From positions 3,569,658-3,633,657 of the forward strand of contig NZ_CP042913.1 of NCBI RefSeq assembly GCF_008065115.1: 64,000 nucleotides of DNA. Reading direction: 5' to 3'. Position numbers and translations under genes: made by a program. Every line of letters begins with the position of its first letter. Position 1 is the stretch's first letter. Below, piece after piece: positions 53,927 through 63,835 of the stretch. The notes beneath the pieces were generated by a model that was not told the origin of the DNA, searched no databases, and saw nothing but the letters and a program-made list of their open reading frames with translations. Source of the DNA: Bythopirellula goksoeyrii (GTDB lineage: Bacteria; Planctomycetota; Planctomycetia; Pirellulales; Lacipirellulaceae).

Positions 53927-54549
53927 GCAGAGTGGAGCTCGGCAAAAGCGGATCGCGACTGTCCGAGTCCTGCTCGCCAGGAGAGGAGGCTCTCCTGGCC
54001 ACGTGTGCGTACATCGACCTCAACCCCGTCGCGGCGGGAGTGGCGGCCACCCCCGAAACCAGCCCACATACCTCGATTCGCCAACGGGTCTGCCATGCCA
54101 GAGAAAAGGGAAAAATCCCCGCACTCTCAGAGGCAGCCCACGGCTCGGTGGCTGGCTCTTGGGCCATCGGCCTGTTGGAGGCAGACCACTGGCTCTGCCC
54201 CATCGAGGACTTGCGCAACAAAGGTGGACCTCGGGAAGGGATGATCGAAGGTTTTTCCCTAGGGAGCTATCTGCTGTTGGTCGACTACACCAGTCGGTTG
54301 TGCCGTCAGGGCAAGGCACGACTCTCGGAGGAAGTGGCCGGCATCTTCGACCGGCTCGGCACGAGCCGGCAATTGTGGGAACAGCGGTTTCACAGACTAC
54401 TGGCCAAGTCCCGTTTGCTGGGCAACTACTTTGCCACGGACGCGGCACGGTTACAACGGGTCGCCAGTCGCCGAGGCGTGCACCACGTCGACAACGCCAT
54501 CCGGCTGGCAACGGGTAGTGTCCGTCAAGATGCGCACATTTGTTTTTAG
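53914..54549 (+). pseudogene. 5'-truncated REP-associated-type transposase
   Basis: About 210 codons, open from just after an in-frame stop at 53911. The block LLATCAYIDLNPVAAGVAAT followed by TSIRQR is the C-terminal signature of HUH (Y1) REP-associated transposases. The HUH half expected before it is absent, so only the C-terminal region remains. It runs to a stop at 54549, just before the left end of the IS256 element. It is not functional. Confidence 0.65.
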
Positions 54550-54580
54550 GGTTTAGCCCTGTCGGTAGGTCCGCCCCCAA

Positions 54581-54604
54581 CTCCGTAGCTGCGTAGCAGC
54601 GGAG
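54581..54604 (+). repeat. hairpin directly before the group II intron
   Basis: CTCC (GTA bulge) GCTGC-GTA-GCAGC-GGAG ends at the base before the intron's GTGCGC. When the intron is removed, a further 12-bp perfect stem appears: CGCCCCCAACTC (54572-54583) with GAGTTGGGGGCG (56604-56615). Group IIC-type introns insert next to such stem-loops. Confidence 0.7.
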
Positions 54605-56603
54605 GTGCGCTGGGCATGGTCGAGCGATTGAGGGTGGAAGTCCCCTGTGGATCCTAACGGAGGTAACCACGAGGTGAAAGCAACTGCACGAGACGGAGTT
54701 TGGACATTGGACAATCGAAGTCTATCCCGCGAGGGCGTGTGGGGAGGAAGCCGTAGCCGAACTGCAGCACCGAACGTAAGTGAACCCTCAAACGGGCTTC
54801 TCGGACCTGGGTTAGCGTGCCTTCCAGCGCGACGCCCGATATCCGTTGGTGGCCGAGGAGTAGTGAGGGCGGAGGCGGCAGGACATTGTTCGATCTTACC
54901 CCAGGAGATCTCTGCGGGTCCGCCTATCGGTATTCCGGAAGAAGGCAACGACGACCGGTTGATGCCCGCAGAGAAGTCGGATCGCCCCATAGTAGTGCTG
55001 AAGCTGGGTAATGCCGGTGGAGCGAAGGGGGCGACAAGTTGTTAAGTGCTGGAACATGCCAACTGGCTTTCGCGTTTGCCGACAGCCCGCATGGGGGCAA
55101 GGACGAGAGAACCTCGGACGAATCCAAGGGAAAGTCGCACCTGCTGCTCAGAGCGAATACCAAGGAGGTAGATCATCCAGCCACCTGGGTAGCCGACGAC
55201 ACAAGTCGGTCACTGGAACAAGTAGCCTCGGTGTCTAATTTGGCCCGGGCGTTGCTTAACGTCGCGCGCAATAAAGGTGCGGCAGGTGTGGACGGACGTG
55301 GTGTACGGGAAGTGGTTGAGGCTTCGCCCCAACTGCTTGCTCAGCTACGCCGTGAATTGCTTTCGGGTACCTACCTGCCTGGCGACATTCGCCGGGTCTG
55401 GATTCCCAAGTCCGGTGGCGGGCATCGGGGCCTAGGTATTCCGAATGTCGTGGACCGCTGGGTTCAGCAGGCCGTACTCCAAGTTTTGGAGCCGATCTTC
55501 GAGCCGACGTTTCACGACAGCAGTCACGGATTCCGTCCGAGGCGTGGTGCACAAACGGCCATTGCTGCGGCCAAGCAATATCTGGCAGAAGGATATGCCT
55601 GGACGGTCGATATTGACCTTTCAAAGTTCTTCGATCGTGTTCACCACCAGCGGCTATTAAACCGCTTGGCGAACCACGTAAAGGATGGGCGTCTCCTAAA
55701 GCTAGTGCATGGCATGCTCAAGGCGAAGGTTGTGTTGCCCGATGGCACACGAACGGCCACGACCGAAGGCGCACCGCAAGGTGGTCCGCTTTCTCCGCTA
55801 CTTTCCAATGTAGTTCTTGACGAACTCGATTGGGAACTGGCACGTCGTGGACTTCGGTTCGTGCGTTACGCCGACGACTTCAGCGTGTTCGTGAAAAGCG
55901 AACGTGCCGGTCGTCGGGTGATGGACTCCGTCAGTAAATTCATTGATAGACGCTTGCGTCTGCTGGTCAATGAAGACAAGAGTTCCGTCACGGGTCCGAA
56001 TTATCTAACTTTCCTCGGCTTTCAACTCGGCAAGAATGCCGAGGGCCAAGTCATGGTGGCAATCTCTCGCCGAACTAAGGAGCGAATGGATGCCCGTATT
56101 CGTGAGCTAACGCCACGAGTCTGGGGTCAATCGCTGTCGACGTGCTTCGAGAGAACCGAACGCTACCTGCGAGGATGGATTGGATACTTTCGGTTGTGTA
56201 CCGAAGATTCCCTGCGACCGCTCCACAAGTTCGACGCCCACATTCGGCGTCGTATTCGGGCGATTATCATTCGTCAGAAGAAGCGGGACCGGTATCTGTT
56301 CCGCCACCTGCAAACACGTGGCGTTTCTCGGAAGTCGGCGGCTAAGACCGCCTTCACTCGTGCTGGCGTTTGGAGACGCAGTGTCAGCTATGGCATCCAT
56401 CAGGCGTATTCCAACGCCTGGTTCGCCGAACGATTGATGCCGCTCACCGACCGTTGGCATGCCTTGAACCCTTCCCGACAGGTCTTCATCAAACAGCAAC
56501 GACTGTTTGAAACCTAAGGCAGCAACTTGAAGAGCCGGATGCGTGACCCGCAAGTCCGGTTCTGTGAGAGGCTTGGGGGAGAGATCCCCCGGGCCTACTC
56601 GAC
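54605..56603 (+). mobile_element. group II intron with reverse transcriptase
   Basis: The 5' end is GTGCGC, the expected group II start. About 430 nt of RNA domains precede the maturase gene. Domain V is at 56532-56562: GAGCCGGA paired with TCCGGTTC, an inner TGCG/CGCA stem and a two-base bulge, including the catalytic AGC. A domain VI hairpin follows (GGGGGA/TCCCCC core, 56575-56590) with a candidate branch-point A at 56597. The end CGAC (56603) has the usual terminal AC. All parts appear intact, so the intron may be active. Boundaries at the 3' side are good to about 2 bases. Confidence 0.85.
55039..56517 (+). CDS. group II intron reverse transcriptase/maturase
   Basis: 492 residues from a TTG with AAGGGG eight bases upstream; the first 45 residues are weakly conserved, so the start is uncertain. 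RT blocks: AGVDGRGVRE, RRVWIPKSGGGHRGLGIPN, HGFRPRRGAQTAI, VDIDLSKFFDRV, EGAPQGGPLSPLLSN, RFVRYADDFSVFV (active-site YADD), FLGFQLG. The maturase (X/GIIM) domain includes ERYLRGWIGYFRL and LHKFDAHIRRRIRAI. No HNH endonuclease domain follows, as in endonuclease-lacking introns that use replication forks or single-stranded targets. It lies within the intron, which it helps splice and mobilise. Confidence 0.93.
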   Translation: MLSAGTCQLAFAFADSPHGGKDERTSDESKGKSHLLLRANTKEVDHPATWVADDTSRSLEQVASVSNLARALLNVARNKGAAGVDGRGVREVVEASPQLLAQLRRELLSGTYLPGDIRRVWIPKSGGGHRGLGIPNVVDRWVQQAVLQVLEPIFEPTFHDSSHGFRPRRGAQTAIAAAKQYLAEGYAWTVDIDLSKFFDRVHHQRLLNRLANHVKDGRLLKLVHGMLKAKVVLPDGTRTATTEGAPQGGPLSPLLSNVVLDELDWELARRGLRFVRYADDFSVFVKSERAGRRVMDSVSKFIDRRLRLLVNEDKSSVTGPNYLTFLGFQLGKNAEGQVMVAISRRTKERMDARIRELTPRVWGQSLSTCFERTERYLRGWIGYFRLCTEDSLRPLHKFDAHIRRRIRAIIIRQKKRDRYLFRHLQTRGVSRKSAAKTAFTRAGVWRRSVSYGIHQAYSNAWFAERLMPLTDRWHALNPSRQVFIKQQRLFET

Positions 56604-56623
56604 GAGTTGGGGGCGTGCGCGGC

Positions 56624-57838
56624 CTACGAGGCCACTCCGCTGGTCTCCTTCGTTGTCTCTTGCAATCGCTCCATATCGAGGTACTTGCGCGTGCCCCATT
56701 TGGTACCAGCGACGTGTCGCAGTCTTGCGGATACCAGCATCAATGCGCTGTTGCCGTCCGGGAAGGCACCCACGACGCGCGTCCGCCGGCGGACTTCGCG
56801 CATCAATCGCTCCAAAGCGTTGTTCGTGCGAATCCGCGTCCAATGCTCGCGAGGATAGGACATGTACCGCAACGTCTCGCCCACGCCCTCCTCGACCACC
56901 TTGGCTGCCTTGGTGAGCTTCATCGCTCGCAGCTTCTCCACAACATCGCCCGCCTTCTTCTTGGCCGCCTCGCGGTCTTCCTGCGCGTGAATTGCCTTGA
57001 GCATCGCCATCACCTCCTTCATTCGATGACGAGGAACTTCCGAGCCGACGTTGCGATACCAGTGGACCACACACCGTTGCCAGTCTGCCTCGGGATAAAA
57101 CTCGCCCAAGGCTTCTACCAACCCTAAACACTTGTCGCTGGTCACCAGGCGAACTCCCTTCAGGCCACGCTCCTTGAGATGCCGGAGGAACTTCCGCCAA
57201 CTCTCGGTATCTTCCTTCGTCCCTTCGCAAACACCCAGAACCTGCCGATAGCCGTCCTGGTCGACGCCCACGGCAACCAATACCGCCACGTTCTTCACCT
57301 CGCCGCCCCACGACCGTTTCAGCCAAATACCATCCAGGGCCACGTAGGCAAAATCGCCCTCGATCGGCTGGTTTCGCCAGGCTTCGATCCGCTCGTAGAG
57401 CTGCTGATTCAGCTCGCTCACCGTGCTCGGAGAAACTCGTGTTCCCCACAACGCCTCGGTGATGTCCTCCACCCGGCGAACGCTCACCCCGGCGAGGTAC
57501 ATCTCCATTAGCGCCTCTTCGACCGACGACTCCCGTCGTCGGTACCGCTCAATAATCTGCGTCTCAAATGGCAAACTGCGGAGTCTAGGAACCTTGAGCG
57601 TCACTTGGCCTGCCTTTGTCTGCAGTCCGCGATCGTATGACCCGGCCCGCGTATCCACGCGGTCGGGGCTCCGCTCGTAACGCTTCGCTCCACAGAGTTG
57701 ATCAGCTTCGGCCTCCAACAGTCCATTGAGCGTCTCCTCGACGCTCTTGCGAACCACCTCGTCGACGTGCCCTCGAATCTGAGCCTCGTCGATCTGAACC
57801 ATGCTTCCGTTTTCAGTACTTCCTGTTAAACTCGCCAT
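56624..57838 (-). CDS. IS256-family (mutator-type) transposase
   Basis: 404 residues from the ATG at 57838, chosen because AAGGAG lies nine bases upstream. The catalytic DDE residues are in YVALDGIWLKRSW (first Asp), LVTSDKCLGLVEAL (second Asp) and RTNNALERLMREVRRRTRVV (Glu). RCVVHWYRNV carries the CxxH of mutator transposases. N-terminal region with PDRVDTRAGSYDRGLQTKAG also fits. It appears intact. It moves the element by cut/copy-and-paste. Confidence 0.95.
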   Translation of the reverse strand: MASLTGSTENGSMVQIDEAQIRGHVDEVVRKSVEETLNGLLEAEADQLCGAKRYERSPDRVDTRAGSYDRGLQTKAGQVTLKVPRLRSLPFETQIIERYRRRESSVEEALMEMYLAGVSVRRVEDITEALWGTRVSPSTVSELNQQLYERIEAWRNQPIEGDFAYVALDGIWLKRSWGGEVKNVAVLVAVGVDQDGYRQVLGVCEGTKEDTESWRKFLRHLKERGLKGVRLVTSDKCLGLVEALGEFYPEADWQRCVVHWYRNVGSEVPRHRMKEVMAMLKAIHAQEDREAAKKKAGDVVEKLRAMKLTKAAKVVEEGVGETLRYMSYPREHWTRIRTNNALERLMREVRRRTRVVGAFPDGNSALMLVSARLRHVAGTKWGTRKYLDMERLQETTKETSGVAS

Positions 57839-57924
57839 CGTGGCAGTCTCCTTCGCTTGGGGGAATGAATCGTAACAATCCAATTCCTACCAAGCAGGGG
57901 CTGCCCAAACAATCTGCGCAATAA

Positions 57925-58316
57925 TTAGGACGTTATCCGCTTTACCACAGTTTGCAAGTTTTTGATCTTACCTGTGATGAACTTTCCTACGACGAAGAAT
58001 TCTTGACAGCGGCATTGCTACTCGCCGTGGGCAAAGGGATCGATCAAAGCGACCACGTTATCACGGGTTTAGAAGCACTCGATGGAATGATCACCCAGAG
58101 GACGGCGCGGCTAATTGAAAACCATATGCTCGCTCATTCAACCGACGATGGATCAATCGGATGGCGCTAAGCTCGTTGGCTCAAGGAATCAGAAGACTAT
58201 GACGAGTTGGTTTTGCTTGGAAAATACGACCGAGCAGGTCGCCAAGTTGGAGTCAAAACTCCTGAACTCGAAGAAGCAATCACCTATCTTAGTGAATTGA
58301 GCACAATGTGTAGCTG
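57925..58316 (+). pseudogene. broken gene flanking the IS256 element
   Basis: A frame open from 57925 runs into an in-frame TAA at 58168 and continues without further stops to a TGA at 58314. Before the TAA it reads like protein (QVFDLTCDELSYDEEFLTAA, MITQRTARLIENHMLAH) and after it too (RWLKESEDYDELVLLGKYDR, TPELEEAITYLSEL). The 5' end abuts the IS end, so the gene has lost its start and gained a stop. I do not recognise the family; it is acidic and helical. Confidence 0.5.
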
Positions 58317-58492: not shown

Positions 58493-59275
58493 TTATATTT
58501 CATTCCCGTTCAGGTCCGTGTTCAGAAGACCCGGTTTGCCCAAACCTCCCTGCGTGAAAAACACACCGTAGAAGTAGAGACTGTTGTTGAAGTAGTCCAC
58601 ACCTGTGGCCCTATTAGTTGGCGACTTCACTGTAATGACCGGAGCAGATGGCACAAGCAGACCGGTCAAAGCATCGTACTCACGATATACGTTGACGGCG
58701 TCGTTATCGTTGATCAGGAAGTTTCCATTCGGAAGAACAGTAAATCCGTCAGCCCCAGGGAGCGGACCCTGGATGGTGACCGTAGTCTGAATCTGCCCGT
58801 TCATAGGGTTCAAGCCATAAACGATGAGCGGCCCTTGCTGGGGTCCGGGTAGATAACCGGTCAATGCGTACAGTCGTCCGTTGAAGAAGTCCAGGTCCTG
58901 GATGTTGAATCCCGGACGCGGATTGGGAAGCGTGGTGAGATCGGCCCCACCATTTCCCCCGTTGTACGGCGCCACGTGTATCCCGGGGCTAGGTCCGCTG
59001 CCAAACGAACTCGTGTTGGTGTAATAGACCAGGCCGCCAACGACTTCTACGGCACGACCGTCGCCGACGCTTTGCTTATTGAAACCAGATGTTGGTGTCC
59101 CCCCTATGGCATAATCCCAGGTTAGAATCGATCCAAATTGCCCTGCTCCCGTCCCTCCCAGATGGCCGACGATGATTGGGCCTGCATAAGCTCTCCCGAA
59201 GAAAACCAACAGTCCAAGAACGGCATACAGAGCGACTGGAATCGCCCGCGCGAGGCCTAGAAAATTAATGCTCAT
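58493..59275 (-). CDS. exported protein, PEP-CTERM type but lacking its tail
   Basis: 260 residues. Signal peptide: MSINFLGLARAIPVALYAVL and on to GRAYAG. The exported domain is rich in Gly, Asn, Pro and repeating beta strands (DGRAVEVVGGLVYYTNTSSF, LDFFNGRLYALTGYLPGP, GFTVLPNGNFLINDNDAVNV, GVDYFNNSLYFYGVFF), suggesting a beta-propeller. The frame ends in TAA at NGNEI and the sorting signal follows in frame. As read, the protein would be released and not anchored by exosortase. A sequencing error, a real nonsense mutation or stop-codon readthrough are all possible. Confidence 0.7.
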   Translation of the reverse strand: MSINFLGLARAIPVALYAVLGLLVFFGRAYAGPIIVGHLGGTGAGQFGSILTWDYAIGGTPTSGFNKQSVGDGRAVEVVGGLVYYTNTSSFGSGPSPGIHVAPYNGGNGGADLTTLPNPRPGFNIQDLDFFNGRLYALTGYLPGPQQGPLIVYGLNPMNGQIQTTVTIQGPLPGADGFTVLPNGNFLINDNDAVNVYREYDALTGLLVPSAPVITVKSPTNRATGVDYFNNSLYFYGVFFTQGGLGKPGLLNTDLNGNEI

Positions 59276-59344: not shown

Positions 59345-62300
59345 TCAGAGAGACCTGTACCCTTTGCCTATCTGGCGTCCGTGACGGCGAGACAAGAAAC
59401 AGAGCATTGGAATTGCTCCTGCAAGGGAGAGTGAGGGAGGTTCGGGAATTGTCTGGCACCACATCACAGCTTCCAATTGTCCGGTGTTTGAATTAAGGGC
59501 CTCTCCCACGATGCAAATTCCAGTCGGAGTGACATCTACCCCTTCTGCCACAGAACTGACATAGTTTGGTGGCAGTAGAGTACTTAGGTCGAAAAAAGAA
59601 GTCGACGTTCCATTCCACAGTGCTGCATGAGCAGTCGGCGAAGAACTCAAATAGGCAAAGCCAACTTGCCAACCCGCTTCCGCGTCTATCGCCCAGCCAC
59701 CTATTCCACCAGTCGGAGTGAGATCGGTCCAACTACTACTTGTCAGGTGCCATAAGGCGGGTCGATCTGGGGAGGTGAGAAAGCGTACATATCCCACGGA
59801 ATCGAATGCGTCGCTCCCCAACGCCACGCTGCCTCTTGCTCCCGCAGGGTGTATATCGGTCCAACCAATTCCTTTCCCATGCCACACTACTGCGTGTCGC
59901 TCATTAAAGCCGGTCACGGCGTTCGGAAATTGGGCCGATCCAACTGCCCACAATGCCGATCCCACATCATTTATTTCAGAGGAATACGCTCCCACTGGAT
60001 GAACGTCCTGCAAAGTGGCTGGCGTGGTGCTTCCAAGCCAGTTCCACACGGCGGCATGGTCTACACGACCAGTAACGCGCGAATTGTAATACCCGCCGAT
60101 AGTATTACCATAAACACCACGCGCTTCGGAATTATCGGTGCGTATATCAATAATCGCAGGGAGATAATTCGAACCGGTCCCCCCCCACGCGTAGGCAGAA
60201 CGTTGAGAGGAAACTGTATCTCTGTATCCAACCGTCAGACCCTTGTTCGTAGCCAACGCTCTACTACTTGCAGGCCCGGGATCGAGATTCACCCAGCTTG
60301 CCGCAGATGAGCTCCATTGGACCGCGTCCTCCATTCCACTTCCTGGCCCCCCGCCTGGGACGACGCCTCCCAAGCCTAGGGTCGAACCGGCAGCTGAACC
60401 AACTTGAATTCCAGCATCAATACTCTTGGCCCACGAAGAGGTCATGCCGCTGGTGTGCAGCGAGGTAAATGTCCATCCAGTCTGCGCTTTTGCTTGCATC
60501 GCAAAGCCGGTAGTGCAGATGATCACCAAACATCCCGTCGTGATCGAGTTGGTTGCCATTGATTCTGAAATACATTGTCGGTTTCTTATTATCAAGACCC
60601 CGCACAGCCCACCCAGAAGAAGTACGAGGCTTCCCGGCTCTGGCACAACTCCCAAGGCGATAATGCTTCCCGAAGAGTCAATGTCTCCTCCGGAGGCACC
60701 CCCGACGAGGCCTACCGAGCCGAAGGCACTTGCCGGGAGCCCCAAGAGGTTGGAGTATCCATCGACGATGAATTCCCAGGTTTCGCCCGCCTGAAAAATA
60801 CCGTCGGCGGGCGAGAAACTTTCGTTGAGAAGTGGTCGATTTGCTCCAATCGAATCAATCTTGAAGGCTGATTCGCCGTTCACAAAGCCGTCACGATTAG
60901 TGATGGTTGTTTCAGGGTCTGCTACATACCATAAGTCTTGCCAGTCAAATCCTGAGAGGTTTGTCATCCGTACCAGTCGGTTGACCACGCCTGGAATCGC
61001 ATGCTGAAGGCATGCAATGTCTGGCGTGGGGATGGCATTGGCACTAATCAATTCATCCGGCGGAAAGGCAATGCCCAATTCGTCAACATTGATCGGCACG
61101 GTGAGTGTATCGCAACACATTGGATCGTCTTGGGAAGAAACACTCACAGGGCTCGCGACTGCAGGTCTGGTTGCCAAGGACAGCGATAGAGTTGCCAGAC
61201 CTACTAGGGAGAGTTTCATGATGTGCTGCGTAGTGGCGATTCTCTCAGGTCGCATTCGGCTGAGAATTGCTACTACTCCCATTCCTAAGAGCACCAAGCT
61301 GCCGGGCTCTGGCACGGTAGGATACTCGGAAACCTGAATCATGTAATTGCCCGCCAAAAAATCGTTGAGCATTTGTTGAGATCCTGTTCCCTGAAAGAAC
61401 AATTGTTTGCGGATATCTACAGGCGTTCCTGGGGCGAGGGGATCAAAGAAGAAGTCAACATTCGTCCCTGAGTTTTGAATCACAAGGTTGTTCGGTCCGG
61501 GAGGTGGCCCAGGAGTCGTGATTTGCACAGTGCCCCAGGACCAATCTGGCGTCAAAATCTCTTCGTGCCAATCGGTCCAAGAAGGTCCTGGGCCAACGAT
61601 CAGATGTTCATTCAAATTGAGAATTGGATTTGCCAGGAACAGTAAGAAATCATTGATGTCTACGTTTCCGTTGCCGTCCTGATCCGGATTTGGAGCGAGC
61701 CATTTTTCAAACGGACCGGCAGTCGGGTTGTAACTCACCGGAATCGGATTAGCTGGATCACCCAGGGTGAAATCGCCGTTGGGTCCTTGCGGAATAGTGA
61801 AGTGTGGCGTGGGGGCGGGTAAAGGAATTAGGGTTGGGGGACCTGCCGAAATACCGGGGCTGATCTGGGCCTGGGAAGTTGCTGCGGTAAAAATTGTTAG
61901 CAGCCCGATAGCGCCTATCGTCATAGGAAGCGATTTTGAGATTGCGGCCAGACACAACCGCCGCCGTGAGGAGGCAAGTCCAATTATGCTTAACAAGCCA
62001 AGAACTAAACTGGAGGGCTCGGGTACTATTGTAAGATTCATCTCGGCCAGATCGACGACTCCAGGACGTTGATTGAGCCTCGCATTGCCGAAGCCAACCT
62101 CCGCACCAACTCGTAGCGTTCCTGTCGGTACAATTACATTATTTAACGCAATAGTTTCCCAAGTCCCAATATTGGCATCGAGGTTAGGATTTGAAGCAGT
62201 GAATGTTGCAATCGCACTTCCTGGACCCACGGGATTAAAGGTATTAAAAAATCGCAAAGCAACATATCCACCTGCACCCGCTGCAGCCGAAGGAACATTG

Positions 62301-62791
62301 AAACAGGCGGAGAGGTCGATTGTTGCATTTCCAGCTGTTATGGCTGCTTGAAATATCGGCGCTGACAGATCGACAAACTGAATCGCCTGGGTCGCTACGC
62401 CCCCTGTTGCATTCTCCCGCAACATTCCATTTCCCTCCTTGGGAGTAATTAGATTTAGACCTGAGTTCAAGAGTACGGGGACAAAGGCCCCCGACTCTAT
62501 TCCCCATGTGTCGAAGACAGGTGTGTTGTAAGCCGTTGTGTATGCGATGGGTGCGTTCGTGGGCGGGGTGTTGAAGCCGGGATCCGTCAGCAGTGGGAAT
62601 ACTTGCGCCCGAGCTTGGCTAAGGCACACAACACTCAGCAGTGCAATCGAGAAAGTGAGTAGTTTGGAGAAGTATGTTGGGTGCGATCCCCAAGATCTTC
62701 CGTTGGTGTCGAGCAATTCCGTGGGATTCGTTGGAGTTGCTTCTGCTTGAGAATGCAGAGTAATGTCGTAATTGATAGGTTTAATATTCAT
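59345..62791 (-). CDS. four-module PEP-CTERM tandem fusion (putative exosortase-substrate polyprotein)
   Basis: 1148 residues in one uninterrupted frame. Module 1 (1-289): signal peptide near 44-62, beta-rich domain, VPEPSS at 256, basic SSRRR at 274. Module 2 (290-524): signal peptide MTIGAIGLLTIFTAATSQAQ, a dockerin-like DQDGNGNVDINDF at 370, VPEPGS at 493, basic SRMRPER. Module 3 (525-744): signal peptide MKLSLVGLATLSLSLATRPA, VPEPGS at 716, basic IRNRQ. Module 4 (745-1148): signal peptide MATNSITTGCLVIICTTGFA, HAF-type repeats (AVVWHGKGIGWTDIHP, PALWHLTSSSWTDLTP, AALWNGTSTSFFDLST), IPEPPS at 1115 and a basic tail. Linkers between each basic tail and the next Met are about 8-12 residues. 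Internal Mets are at 61924, 61219 and 60559; none has a good ribosome-binding site. Signal peptidase and exosortase could cut it into four proteins. Confidence 0.85.
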   Translation of the reverse strand: MNIKPINYDITLHSQAEATPTNPTELLDTNGRSWGSHPTYFSKLLTFSIALLSVVCLSQARAQVFPLLTDPGFNTPPTNAPIAYTTAYNTPVFDTWGIESGAFVPVLLNSGLNLITPKEGNGMLRENATGGVATQAIQFVDLSAPIFQAAITAGNATIDLSACFNVPSAAAGAGGYVALRFFNTFNPVGPGSAIATFTASNPNLDANIGTWETIALNNVIVPTGTLRVGAEVGFGNARLNQRPGVVDLAEMNLTIVPEPSSLVLGLLSIIGLASSRRRLCLAAISKSLPMTIGAIGLLTIFTAATSQAQISPGISAGPPTLIPLPAPTPHFTIPQGPNGDFTLGDPANPIPVSYNPTAGPFEKWLAPNPDQDGNGNVDINDFLLFLANPILNLNEHLIVGPGPSWTDWHEEILTPDWSWGTVQITTPGPPPGPNNLVIQNSGTNVDFFFDPLAPGTPVDIRKQLFFQGTGSQQMLNDFLAGNYMIQVSEYPTVPEPGSLVLLGMGVVAILSRMRPERIATTQHIMKLSLVGLATLSLSLATRPAVASPVSVSSQDDPMCCDTLTVPINVDELGIAFPPDELISANAIPTPDIACLQHAIPGVVNRLVRMTNLSGFDWQDLWYVADPETTITNRDGFVNGESAFKIDSIGANRPLLNESFSPADGIFQAGETWEFIVDGYSNLLGLPASAFGSVGLVGGASGGDIDSSGSIIALGVVPEPGSLVLLLGGLCGVLIIRNRQCISESMATNSITTGCLVIICTTGFAMQAKAQTGWTFTSLHTSGMTSSWAKSIDAGIQVGSAAGSTLGLGGVVPGGGPGSGMEDAVQWSSSAASWVNLDPGPASSRALATNKGLTVGYRDTVSSQRSAYAWGGTGSNYLPAIIDIRTDNSEARGVYGNTIGGYYNSRVTGRVDHAAVWNWLGSTTPATLQDVHPVGAYSSEINDVGSALWAVGSAQFPNAVTGFNERHAVVWHGKGIGWTDIHPAGARGSVALGSDAFDSVGYVRFLTSPDRPALWHLTSSSWTDLTPTGGIGGWAIDAEAGWQVGFAYLSSSPTAHAALWNGTSTSFFDLSTLLPPNYVSSVAEGVDVTPTGICIVGEALNSNTGQLEAVMWCQTIPEPPSLSLAGAIPMLCFLSRRHGRQIGKGYRSL

Positions 62792-62855: not shown

Positions 62856-63671
62856 TCATTTTCTCCATTGGCGGTACCTCCTGGTCAATCCCACGCACCC
62901 AAAGGCCAGCATCACCACACTCGACGGCTCAGGAACCACCCCCACTCGCATACTATTAAAAAAGGCATCGTTTGCGGGACTGAGTCCGGAAGCGGAATTT
63001 TGCAGGACGATTCCCATGACATTGCCATCCAATGTGGTTAATGGGAGGGTCTGCGAGTTTCCATTCCGCAATGTGACTTTCAGGTCGAAGGTCGTCGAAC
63101 CAGTTCGCAGCAGATTGAAGGAGAGCCCTTCGTCGGCAAAACCAAGAGTGCTCTGCTGATGGGCGGTGAGGTTCTGAGAGTAAACCTCGTAGGTAGAATC
63201 TCCCCCGTGGTATCGGAATAGGATGTAATCACTGTTAGTGATGAACTGCAACCCTGCGAATTGGGTTGTGTCTACGCTACCATTGTCAAAATCGATTTCA
63301 ATCGCTTGTCCGATGGACAAGGGTCCACCGGTCAATTGGCGGAAAGCTGCGATGGCGCTGTTGCCGTTGCGGGCAAAGAGTCCCCACGAGCGGCCTGCGG
63401 TGTCGATGTCTGAATCGCCAGCGATACCTTGGGAGTTTCCATCGTCTAGGCCATCGCCATTAGCGGTCGAAGTCCCCATGAACTGGCCAGCACTACCTTG
63501 GGGAAGAAAGGCCCACGGGGTAAAGCCGAAGCCACCGTTGTCGCCTGCCTGCCAACCATTGTTGTAGACAGCATCGGCAGCAGAATCGAAGGCAATGTTT
63601 GCCGCGCCAAGTGGAGCAATTCCACAGCAAGAAATCAACAAGAGCTGACCAGCGAATAGTATGCGTGTCAT
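62856..63671 (-). CDS. PEP-CTERM exported protein
   Basis: 271 residues from the ATG at 63671, where the signal peptide begins (MTRILFAGQLLLISCCGIAP, cleavage near LGAA); a start at 63758 would add 29 residues in front of it. The exported domain is a beta-sandwich-like fold (FDSAADAVYNNGWQAGDNGG, GDSDIDTAGRSWGLFARNG, AIEIDFDNGSVD, YILFRYHGGDSTYEVYSQ). The C-terminus has VPEPSSVVMLAFGCVGLTRR and a basic tail. It is a substrate for exosortase; no exosortase gene is in the window. 64 bp separate it from the four-module gene downstream, possibly one operon. Confidence 0.85.
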   Translation of the reverse strand: MTRILFAGQLLLISCCGIAPLGAANIAFDSAADAVYNNGWQAGDNGGFGFTPWAFLPQGSAGQFMGTSTANGDGLDDGNSQGIAGDSDIDTAGRSWGLFARNGNSAIAAFRQLTGGPLSIGQAIEIDFDNGSVDTTQFAGLQFITNSDYILFRYHGGDSTYEVYSQNLTAHQQSTLGFADEGLSFNLLRTGSTTFDLKVTLRNGNSQTLPLTTLDGNVMGIVLQNSASGLSPANDAFFNSMRVGVVPEPSSVVMLAFGCVGLTRRYRQWRK

Positions 63672-63835
63672 ATAAACTTTCAGGTAAAAAAGGGTTTGGT
63701 AGATGATTCCAGATCTGGAACGGAGTAAAGTAAAAAATCGTATCTGTGATTGGACCATGTTGAATCAGGCGAGGCCCCAGCCATTCCCCCTATCTGAGAG
63801 AATGGCAAATGCCTCAAGAAAAGTTTTTCCAGCAT

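Follow-up and report, generated by a model that had tools for sequence, protein, structure and literature searches.

Four PEP-CTERM precursors in one reading frame

In Bythopirellula goksoeyrii, a single minus-strand open reading frame (ORF) of 1148 amino acids (aa) joins four successive PEP-CTERM precursors, and we consider it probable that this ORF encodes a polyprotein of four exosortase substrates that is cut by signal peptidase and exosortase. The ORF occupies positions 59345-62791 of a 64,000-nucleotide stretch of contig NZ_CP042913.1 (3,569,658 to 3,633,657 of the forward strand); this whole stretch is referred to here as the window, and the genome that holds it as G000. Directly observed are the single frame, the complete set of signals in each unit, the recurrence of the arrangement in other genomes, junctions that are free of start codons, conservation in frame, and an exosortase in every genome concerned.

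The frame opens with an ATG and contains no internal stop. Its PEP motifs are VPEP at residues 256, 493 and 716 and IPEP at residue 1115, and downstream of every one of them a hydrophobic stretch is followed by basic residues. The profiles PF07589 (Pfam) and TIGR02595 (NCBIfam) both scored above cut-off on the ORF, with three stretches each, and the fourth PEP-CTERM (IPEPPSLSLAGAIPMLCFLSRRHGR) was identified by reading the sequence only, without a profile match. Signal-peptide-like segments follow the first three tails, the mean Kyte-Doolittle values of their hydrophobic cores (h-regions) being 2.14, 2.03 and 2.25, and the signal peptide of unit 1 was recognized by reading the sequence. Only in unit 4 does the sorting signal stand near the C-terminus of the protein; the other three PEP-CTERMs are internal. 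These results confirm the first-pass annotation of the window, made from the letters alone, which had described four signal-peptide/PEP-CTERM units in one 1148-codon frame. The ORF and its units are as follows.

59345..62791, minus strand: candidate four-unit PEP-CTERM polyprotein ORF, 1148 aa (frame and Pfam/NCBIfam matches)
61925..62791, minus strand: unit 1, signal peptide 1 (62603-62674) preceded by about 40 aa of N-terminal extension; PEP-CTERM helix 61955-62026
61220..61924, minus strand: unit 2, signal peptide 2 (61865-61924) close behind the basic tail of unit 1; PEP-CTERM helix 61244-61315
60560..61219, minus strand: unit 3, signal peptide 3 (61151-61219); PEP-CTERM helix 60575-60646
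59345..60559, minus strand: unit 4, signal peptide 4 (60482-60559); terminal PEP-CTERM helix 59378-59449 and a true stop

With respect to the three linkers, one alternative frame is closed at all of them, and junctions 1 and 3 are open in the remaining one. The bare openness of such short linkers is therefore unremarkable, and what is remarkable is that three consecutive expected gene ends are missing. Programmed stop read-through was considered and rejected, as there is no stop at the window junctions to be read through.

Chains of precursors recur in Planctomycetota

The final filtered set holds at least 32 ORFs with two or more same-frame PEP-CTERM motifs, with 72 junctions in 17 genomes, and fused arrangements are thereby present in 16 genomes besides that of the window. 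Single ORFs have ten, eight, seven, six and five units, three have four, seven have three and seventeen have two, some of them ending at contig edges. The searches used a junction profile (A2) against 14 genomes of the genus, 43 of the family and 397 of the class, and a second junction profile (A3) against 296 genomes of the order and 392 of the phylum, sets that overlap with those of A2; profile A1 was set aside for searching because its signal-peptide half was poorly aligned. At most 17 to 150 candidates were scored per genome and the best of them considered, which makes the chain counts lower bounds, and 33 stretches were retrieved after the junction-profile searches and read at the DNA level.

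Within the family of the window, Lacipirellulaceae, at least one chain was found in 9 of the 43 genomes. Two-unit ORFs are present in Botrimarina colliarenosi Pla108 (G020; L001 2364-5654), a member of the same family, and in G007, and the window genome itself has two more, at L025 5637-7586 (649 aa) and L029 2516-5464 (982 aa). The draft genome G425 contributes 8 of the 32 chains, with two further matches there (C326 and C354) standing outside the count. No match at the junction-profile threshold was obtained in G313, another genome of G425's family, or in the six other genomes of the family of G290. An exosortase accompanies the chains throughout: the window genome has three PF09721 matches above cut-off, and all 16 other chain-bearing genomes, hence all 17, encode one. 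The first-pass annotation had named proteins in which a signal peptide comes after each of several PEP-CTERM motifs, with the frame kept in relatives, as the support to be expected for its reading, and the 32 ORFs from 17 genomes, with their homologous pairs in frame, provide it.

When 23 of the 32 chains were scanned with Pfam, two or more PEP-CTERM stretches were recognized in 19, with counts of 7 in the G290 ORF, 10 in G425:C91, 8 in G425:C80 and 4 in G435:C17. The domains of the units are varied and include sulfatase-modifying-factor-like, concanavalin-like, F5/8 and dockerin-bearing types. In the G290 ORF, six sulfatase-modifying-factor-like domains stand beside the seven PEP-CTERM stretches, and the six related units share 49-88% mutual identity, which suggests that whole precursors were duplicated and inserted in frame. 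Units 2 and 5 of this seven-unit ORF (L078 7591-14874) share 88% identity over 334 aa, and among the six related units stands one from another family, with weak SMP-30/phytase-like matches.

Three junction-profile matches (G089 L160, G435:C212 L165 and G513 L166) proved on reading to be single PEP-CTERM genes. Three more candidates were dropped before the final count: G461, whose second unit is short and has no PEP; G544, whose first unit is partly masked as N; and G425:C62, with one PEP before the contig edge. Separately, three exosortase matches lie inside frames of 1742, 1739 and 1755 aa (G016:C1:1484638-1485399, G019:C91:533714-534469 and G020:C2:93067-93819, respectively); the other listed exosortase frames measure 311-607 aa, and the three matches are possibly fused to other large domains.

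Junctions between units

At a typical junction, the basic tail of one PEP-CTERM runs almost directly into the next signal core and an A-x-A motif, as in VPEPSSFVLVLAGLAACVASRRRKVAVVAASLVVFAAVGAASNEAHA from G034. The loop between the PEP-CTERM helix and the next signal-peptide core has a median length of 9 residues, is no longer than 12 residues at 57 of the 72 junctions, and is without an acidic residue (D/E) at 64 of them.

These loops bear directly on whether the chains are translated as such. ATG is absent from 57 of the 72 junctions (codon composition expects 59.1), and all three of ATG, GTG and TTG are absent from 29 (32.8 expected); the stretch counted begins with the residue ahead of the first basic one and ends two residues into the h-region, and other definitions would shift the figure of 29. 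Start codons are not enriched at the junctions, and internal starts are not being kept across the class. For the class as a whole, this agreement with codon composition speaks against separate starts, and because 29 of the 72 junctions have no start codon where one would be required, there is good support on sequence grounds for one-chain translation of the class. The start-free junctions are not confined to the two genomes with the window ORF and the most chains: with G000 and G425 excluded, 13 of 32 are start-free, in 10 genomes, and the junction of the Botrimarina colliarenosi ORF is among the start-free ones. In G290, five of six junctions have a GTG beside the arginines and one has none, which calls for caution in reading these counts.

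Evidence relevant to cleavage comes from the A-x-A motif, which stands behind the h-region at 51 of 74 signal-peptide-like junctions (in the set before the final filter), whereas 1000 shuffles give 39 on average and never more than 50.

Conservation across junctions

Fused ORFs of different species can be aligned straight through their junctions. Those of G423 and G427 share 81% identity over 848 aa, those of G033 and G035 61% over 1032 aa, spanning two junctions, and those of G016 and G034, from two genera, 42% over 924 aa; G019 and G034 share 36% over 660 aa, and G290 and G435, from two families, 54% over 716 aa. The ratio of nonsynonymous to synonymous substitution rates (dN/dS) was computed at four junctions, synonymous change being saturated for G016-G034. 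It is 0.19 at the G423-G427 junction (52 codons), where the flanking units have 0.12 and 0.15; for G033-G035 it is 0.80 (junction 1, 47 codons) and 0.40, and for G290-G435 0.38. These ratios lie below 1 yet at all four junctions exceed that of at least one flanking unit, which points to a junction that is constrained, though more loosely than the domains.

The same data make it very improbable that missed stops or frameshifts in sequencing or assembly have yielded false fusions. Several other chain genomes are many-contig draft assemblies, as such an artifact would have it, whereas the window genome, G016 and G034 are single contigs, the pattern recurs in 17 genomes, and homologous fused ORFs agree in frame and show dN/dS below 1 at the junctions computed; moreover, the three junctions of the window ORF would require three independent errors.

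Alternatives to internal cleavage and to one-chain translation

Several observations, the junction dN/dS ratios in excess of flanking units among them, weigh against the polyprotein reading. Both junction profiles were trained on some of the junctions counted, and those match by construction; likewise, PEP is conserved among the units counted because the ORF scan demanded [VILAT]PEP. Pfam finds fewer than two PEP-CTERM stretches in 4 of the 23 chains scanned (one each in G034_a, G018 and G007_a, and none in the Botrimarina ORF, whose best match reaches 15.6 bits against a cut-off of 20.7), and it misses one counted motif in the window, G016_a, G033, G035_a and G035_b ORFs. A strict A-x-A is absent from 23 of the 74 junctions of the pre-filter set.

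The internal motifs that fall under the Pfam cut-off would fit a chain that is translated whole and left uncut internally, a multidomain surface protein on membrane hairpins in which only the last PEP-CTERM is processed. Long-tailed PEP-CTERM examples, which are few, were thought possibly non-functional by Haft et al. 2006, as far as the accessible text of that paper goes (PMC1569441). On the other hand, A-x-A is enriched behind the internal signal peptides relative to shuffles, units 1-3 of the window ORF have homologues that are PEP-CTERM genes in their own right, and the internal sorting signal of the haloarchaeal protein HVO_0405 is, according to the accessible text of its description, cut by the archaeosortase ArtA (PMC7157517). 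We regard the uncut chain as improbable.

For the window ORF itself, the relatives provide a second set of contrary observations. Matches to it were found in 9 of the 14 genus genomes (its own counted); outside the ORF, the frames involved measure 221-469 aa, the size of single genes, and correspond to no more than parts of units 1-3. Unit 1 has a homologue in G009:C39, where a frame of 335 aa stands by itself with one PEP-CTERM; unit 2 has homologues with one PEP-CTERM each in Botrimarina colliarenosi (L001) and G001; and unit 3 is matched in separate frames of G005, G008, G009, G010, G011 and G012. No homologue of unit 4 and no fused four-unit frame occurs among the matches in the 14 genus genomes, where units 1-3 are separate. 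In G011:C501 (L019), a PEP-CTERM gene precedes the unit 2 homologue in the same frame, with a single TAA between them and an ATG eight codons later. This tandem pair may represent the unfused state of such a junction and, possibly, the state that preceded fusion in the chains. Judged from the separate units 1-3 of these relatives and the in-frame TAA of G011, the window fusion is lineage-specific.

The window loops also differ from those of the class. They are longer, at 15, 15 and 18 residues, and each has an ATG (the internal ATGs start at 61924, 61219 and 60559), an outcome whose chance, if composition alone decided, would be about 0.01 as estimated from ATG frequency and loop lengths. In view of that low chance, the ATGs are probably former start codons of genes that were joined rather recently; the window fusion looks young, and within the class the window ORF is the least clear case.

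Are these codons still used? Those nearest the signal cores pair with the anti-Shine-Dalgarno sequence at +1.9, +1.1 and +0.2 kcal/mol, that is, without a Shine-Dalgarno site, compared with -5 kcal/mol or better at 16 of 22 reference starts; the nearest-ATG rule behind these values picks wrong starts for some genes. The reference combines 13 loci (ATG only) and 9 ORFs of the gene array around the window ORF (any start type, one being the fused ORF itself), and it leaves out 7 of 20 loci and one array gene that have no candidate start under a rule that also misses the true start of unit 1. When any internal start type is allowed, the best window values become -4.4, 0.4 and -3.4 (one-sided Mann-Whitney p 0.036 against the reference). 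As the ATGs lack Shine-Dalgarno pairing, the full-length chain is the expected product of the window ORF on this sequence evidence, with extra internal initiation possible. A contrary case is the linker of the two-unit ORF at L029 2516-5464, which has a good Shine-Dalgarno site and an ATG (AAAGAGGAACTTACCATG); there, full-chain and separate translation both look possible.

These are the observations on which to judge whether units 2-4 are instead translated separately from their internal ATGs, through coupling or Shine-Dalgarno-free initiation, the loss of stops being a near-neutral accident in a tight array. The retained ATGs, the G011 stop, the separate genes that are homologous to units 1-3 or paralogous to unit 3, the setting of the ORF in a tandem PEP-CTERM gene array and the site kept at the L029 junction all favor this explanation. 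Its products would nonetheless, in the absence of stops, come in addition to the full chain, the window ATGs pair far less well than most reference starts, and the 29 start-free junctions of the class are left unexplained. We therefore consider separate translation unlikely, if somewhat less so than an uncut chain.

The first-pass annotation fares accordingly on three counts. Its polyprotein reading is supported in part, namely for one-chain translation of the class, while the fusion it described turns out to be lineage-specific. Stops at the junctions in relatives, which it had held to speak against that reading, were encountered in part for units of the window ORF; homologous fused ORFs elsewhere keep the junction in frame. 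Finally, the internal Met starts that it raised as an alternative do retain their ATGs at all three window junctions, without Shine-Dalgarno pairing.

Genomic surroundings of the window ORF

The genome of the window is a single contig of 6.47 Mb with at least 99 PEP-CTERM matches at E<=0.001 (among the best 150 of 316 candidates). The polyprotein candidate lies inside a one-directional PEP-CTERM gene array that runs from about 69441 (in the neighboring stretch L024) down to 58493. The remaining array genes each have their own stop, and the gaps measure 46 to 164 bases when starts are assigned by a nearest-start rule, which places some of them wrongly. Unit 3 has two separate-gene paralogues in the array (L024 4762-5481 and 618-1463; 41-44% identity), and unit 2 has one weak array paralogue (21% identity). 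The genes that flank the ORF are the following.

62856..63758, minus strand: PEP-CTERM gene upstream of the ORF in the same tandem array, separate from it and ending in its own stop; PF07589 17.9 bits (cut-off 20.7), TIGR02595 18.2 bits (above 16)
58493..59275, minus strand: separate downstream array gene with a signal-peptide-like start; no PEP-CTERM found in it

The latter is the last gene of the array; it ends close to a mobile segment and may be truncated. This 3.4-kb segment, with transposase-like and reverse-transcriptase-like ORFs by reading, is present at window positions 54514-57940 and at L024 13057-16486. The two copies are 99.7% identical and in inverted orientation, one on each side of the PEP-CTERM array, and such a pair could mobilize or invert the array.

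Proposed mechanism and relation to known systems

By the positive-inside rule, the tail of a PEP-CTERM is kept on the cytoplasmic side, where the basic end of a signal peptide must also lie. Since tail and signal-peptide n-region are both cytoplasmic and basic, the shared loop would meet both topological needs. In the mechanism that we propose, one polypeptide would be made and its Sec export begun by signal peptide 1; the PEP-CTERM helices would stop transfer, their basic tails remaining in the cytoplasm, and the short basic loop would double as the n-region of the following signal peptide, at which export restarts. Signal peptidase would then cleave behind the internal signal peptides and exosortase at the PEP sites, so that four mature surface proteins are set free and a helical hairpin remains between neighbors. 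The membrane topology, both cleavages and the equal dosage of the products we infer from the arrangement of the signals.

The chains resemble known substrates of the PEP-CTERM/exosortase (EpsH) system in that each unit has a signal peptide and a PEP motif, helix and basic tail, and in that an exosortase is encoded in the genome. They differ in having 2-10 complete precursors per frame, whereas known substrates have a single signal near the C-terminus, "virtually without exception" in the accessible text of PMC1569441. The closest parallel is HVO_0405 of Haloferax volcanii, a two-gene fusion whose central tripartite signal is cut by ArtA, an enzyme of the exosortase family (accessible text of PMC7157517); likewise, the ArtA signal may be located C-terminally "or in other regions" (accessible text of PMC9263693). 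HVO_0405 is, like the chains, a gene fusion with a central signal, but as described there it has one internal signal and no series of precursors running from signal peptide to sorting signal. In addition, mid-protein cutting by exosortase seems to be recognized already in the NCBIfam family NF033207, "midcut-by-XrtH", a likeness judged by the family name only. NF033207 gave no match above cut-off in the window ORF (none at E<=1) or in four other ORFs scanned, its best being a weak match to the G290 ORF (20 bits, cut-off 45).

Outside the exosortase family, MXAN_5598 has an internal MYXO-CTERM and is a proposed two-gene fusion with proposed internal processing, and MYXO-CTERM tags function mid-protein according to work cited in the same paper (accessible text of PMC11980579). 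As portrayed there, it differs from the chains in its sorting enzyme and in that a beta-barrel/OmpA part, and not another tagged substrate, follows the internal tag.

In the literature on PEP-CTERM and exosortase, planctomycetes included, we found no description of a chain of complete exosortase substrates, a statement limited to a part of the openly accessible text; mentions of PEP-CTERM in tandem in that text refer to several proteins, and the accessible parts of PMC3237569 and PMC12078418 hold nothing on chained PEP-CTERM precursors. The statement of the first-pass annotation that it knew of no described case thus stands, within the same coverage, for chains of complete substrates, internal cutting being known from HVO_0405 and "midcut-by-XrtH". 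The new feature is the chain of complete precursors within the PEP-CTERM/exosortase system, whereas the cutting of internal sorting signals is itself already known.

Viruses and hormone precursors are the typical setting for polyproteins from which several secreted proteins are cut; in bacteria such polyproteins are rare. One bacterial membrane polyprotein is the Bradyrhizobium cytochrome b/c1 precursor (fbcH), which is split at an internal signal peptide; unlike the chains, it supplies subunits of a respiratory complex through one cut and involves no sortase. If the polyprotein reading is correct, exosortase would act within polypeptides, beyond their ends, signal peptides could also stand within a chain, and one cytoplasmic loop could combine a C-terminal sorting signal with an N-terminal signal peptide; predictors that look at the ends of proteins would miss all internal units. 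Whether this amounts to a general planctomycete strategy we judge to be evenly balanced: up to ten complete exosortase substrates would be chained through shared arginine loops, and one precursor would be diced into a set of surface proteins in fixed ratio.

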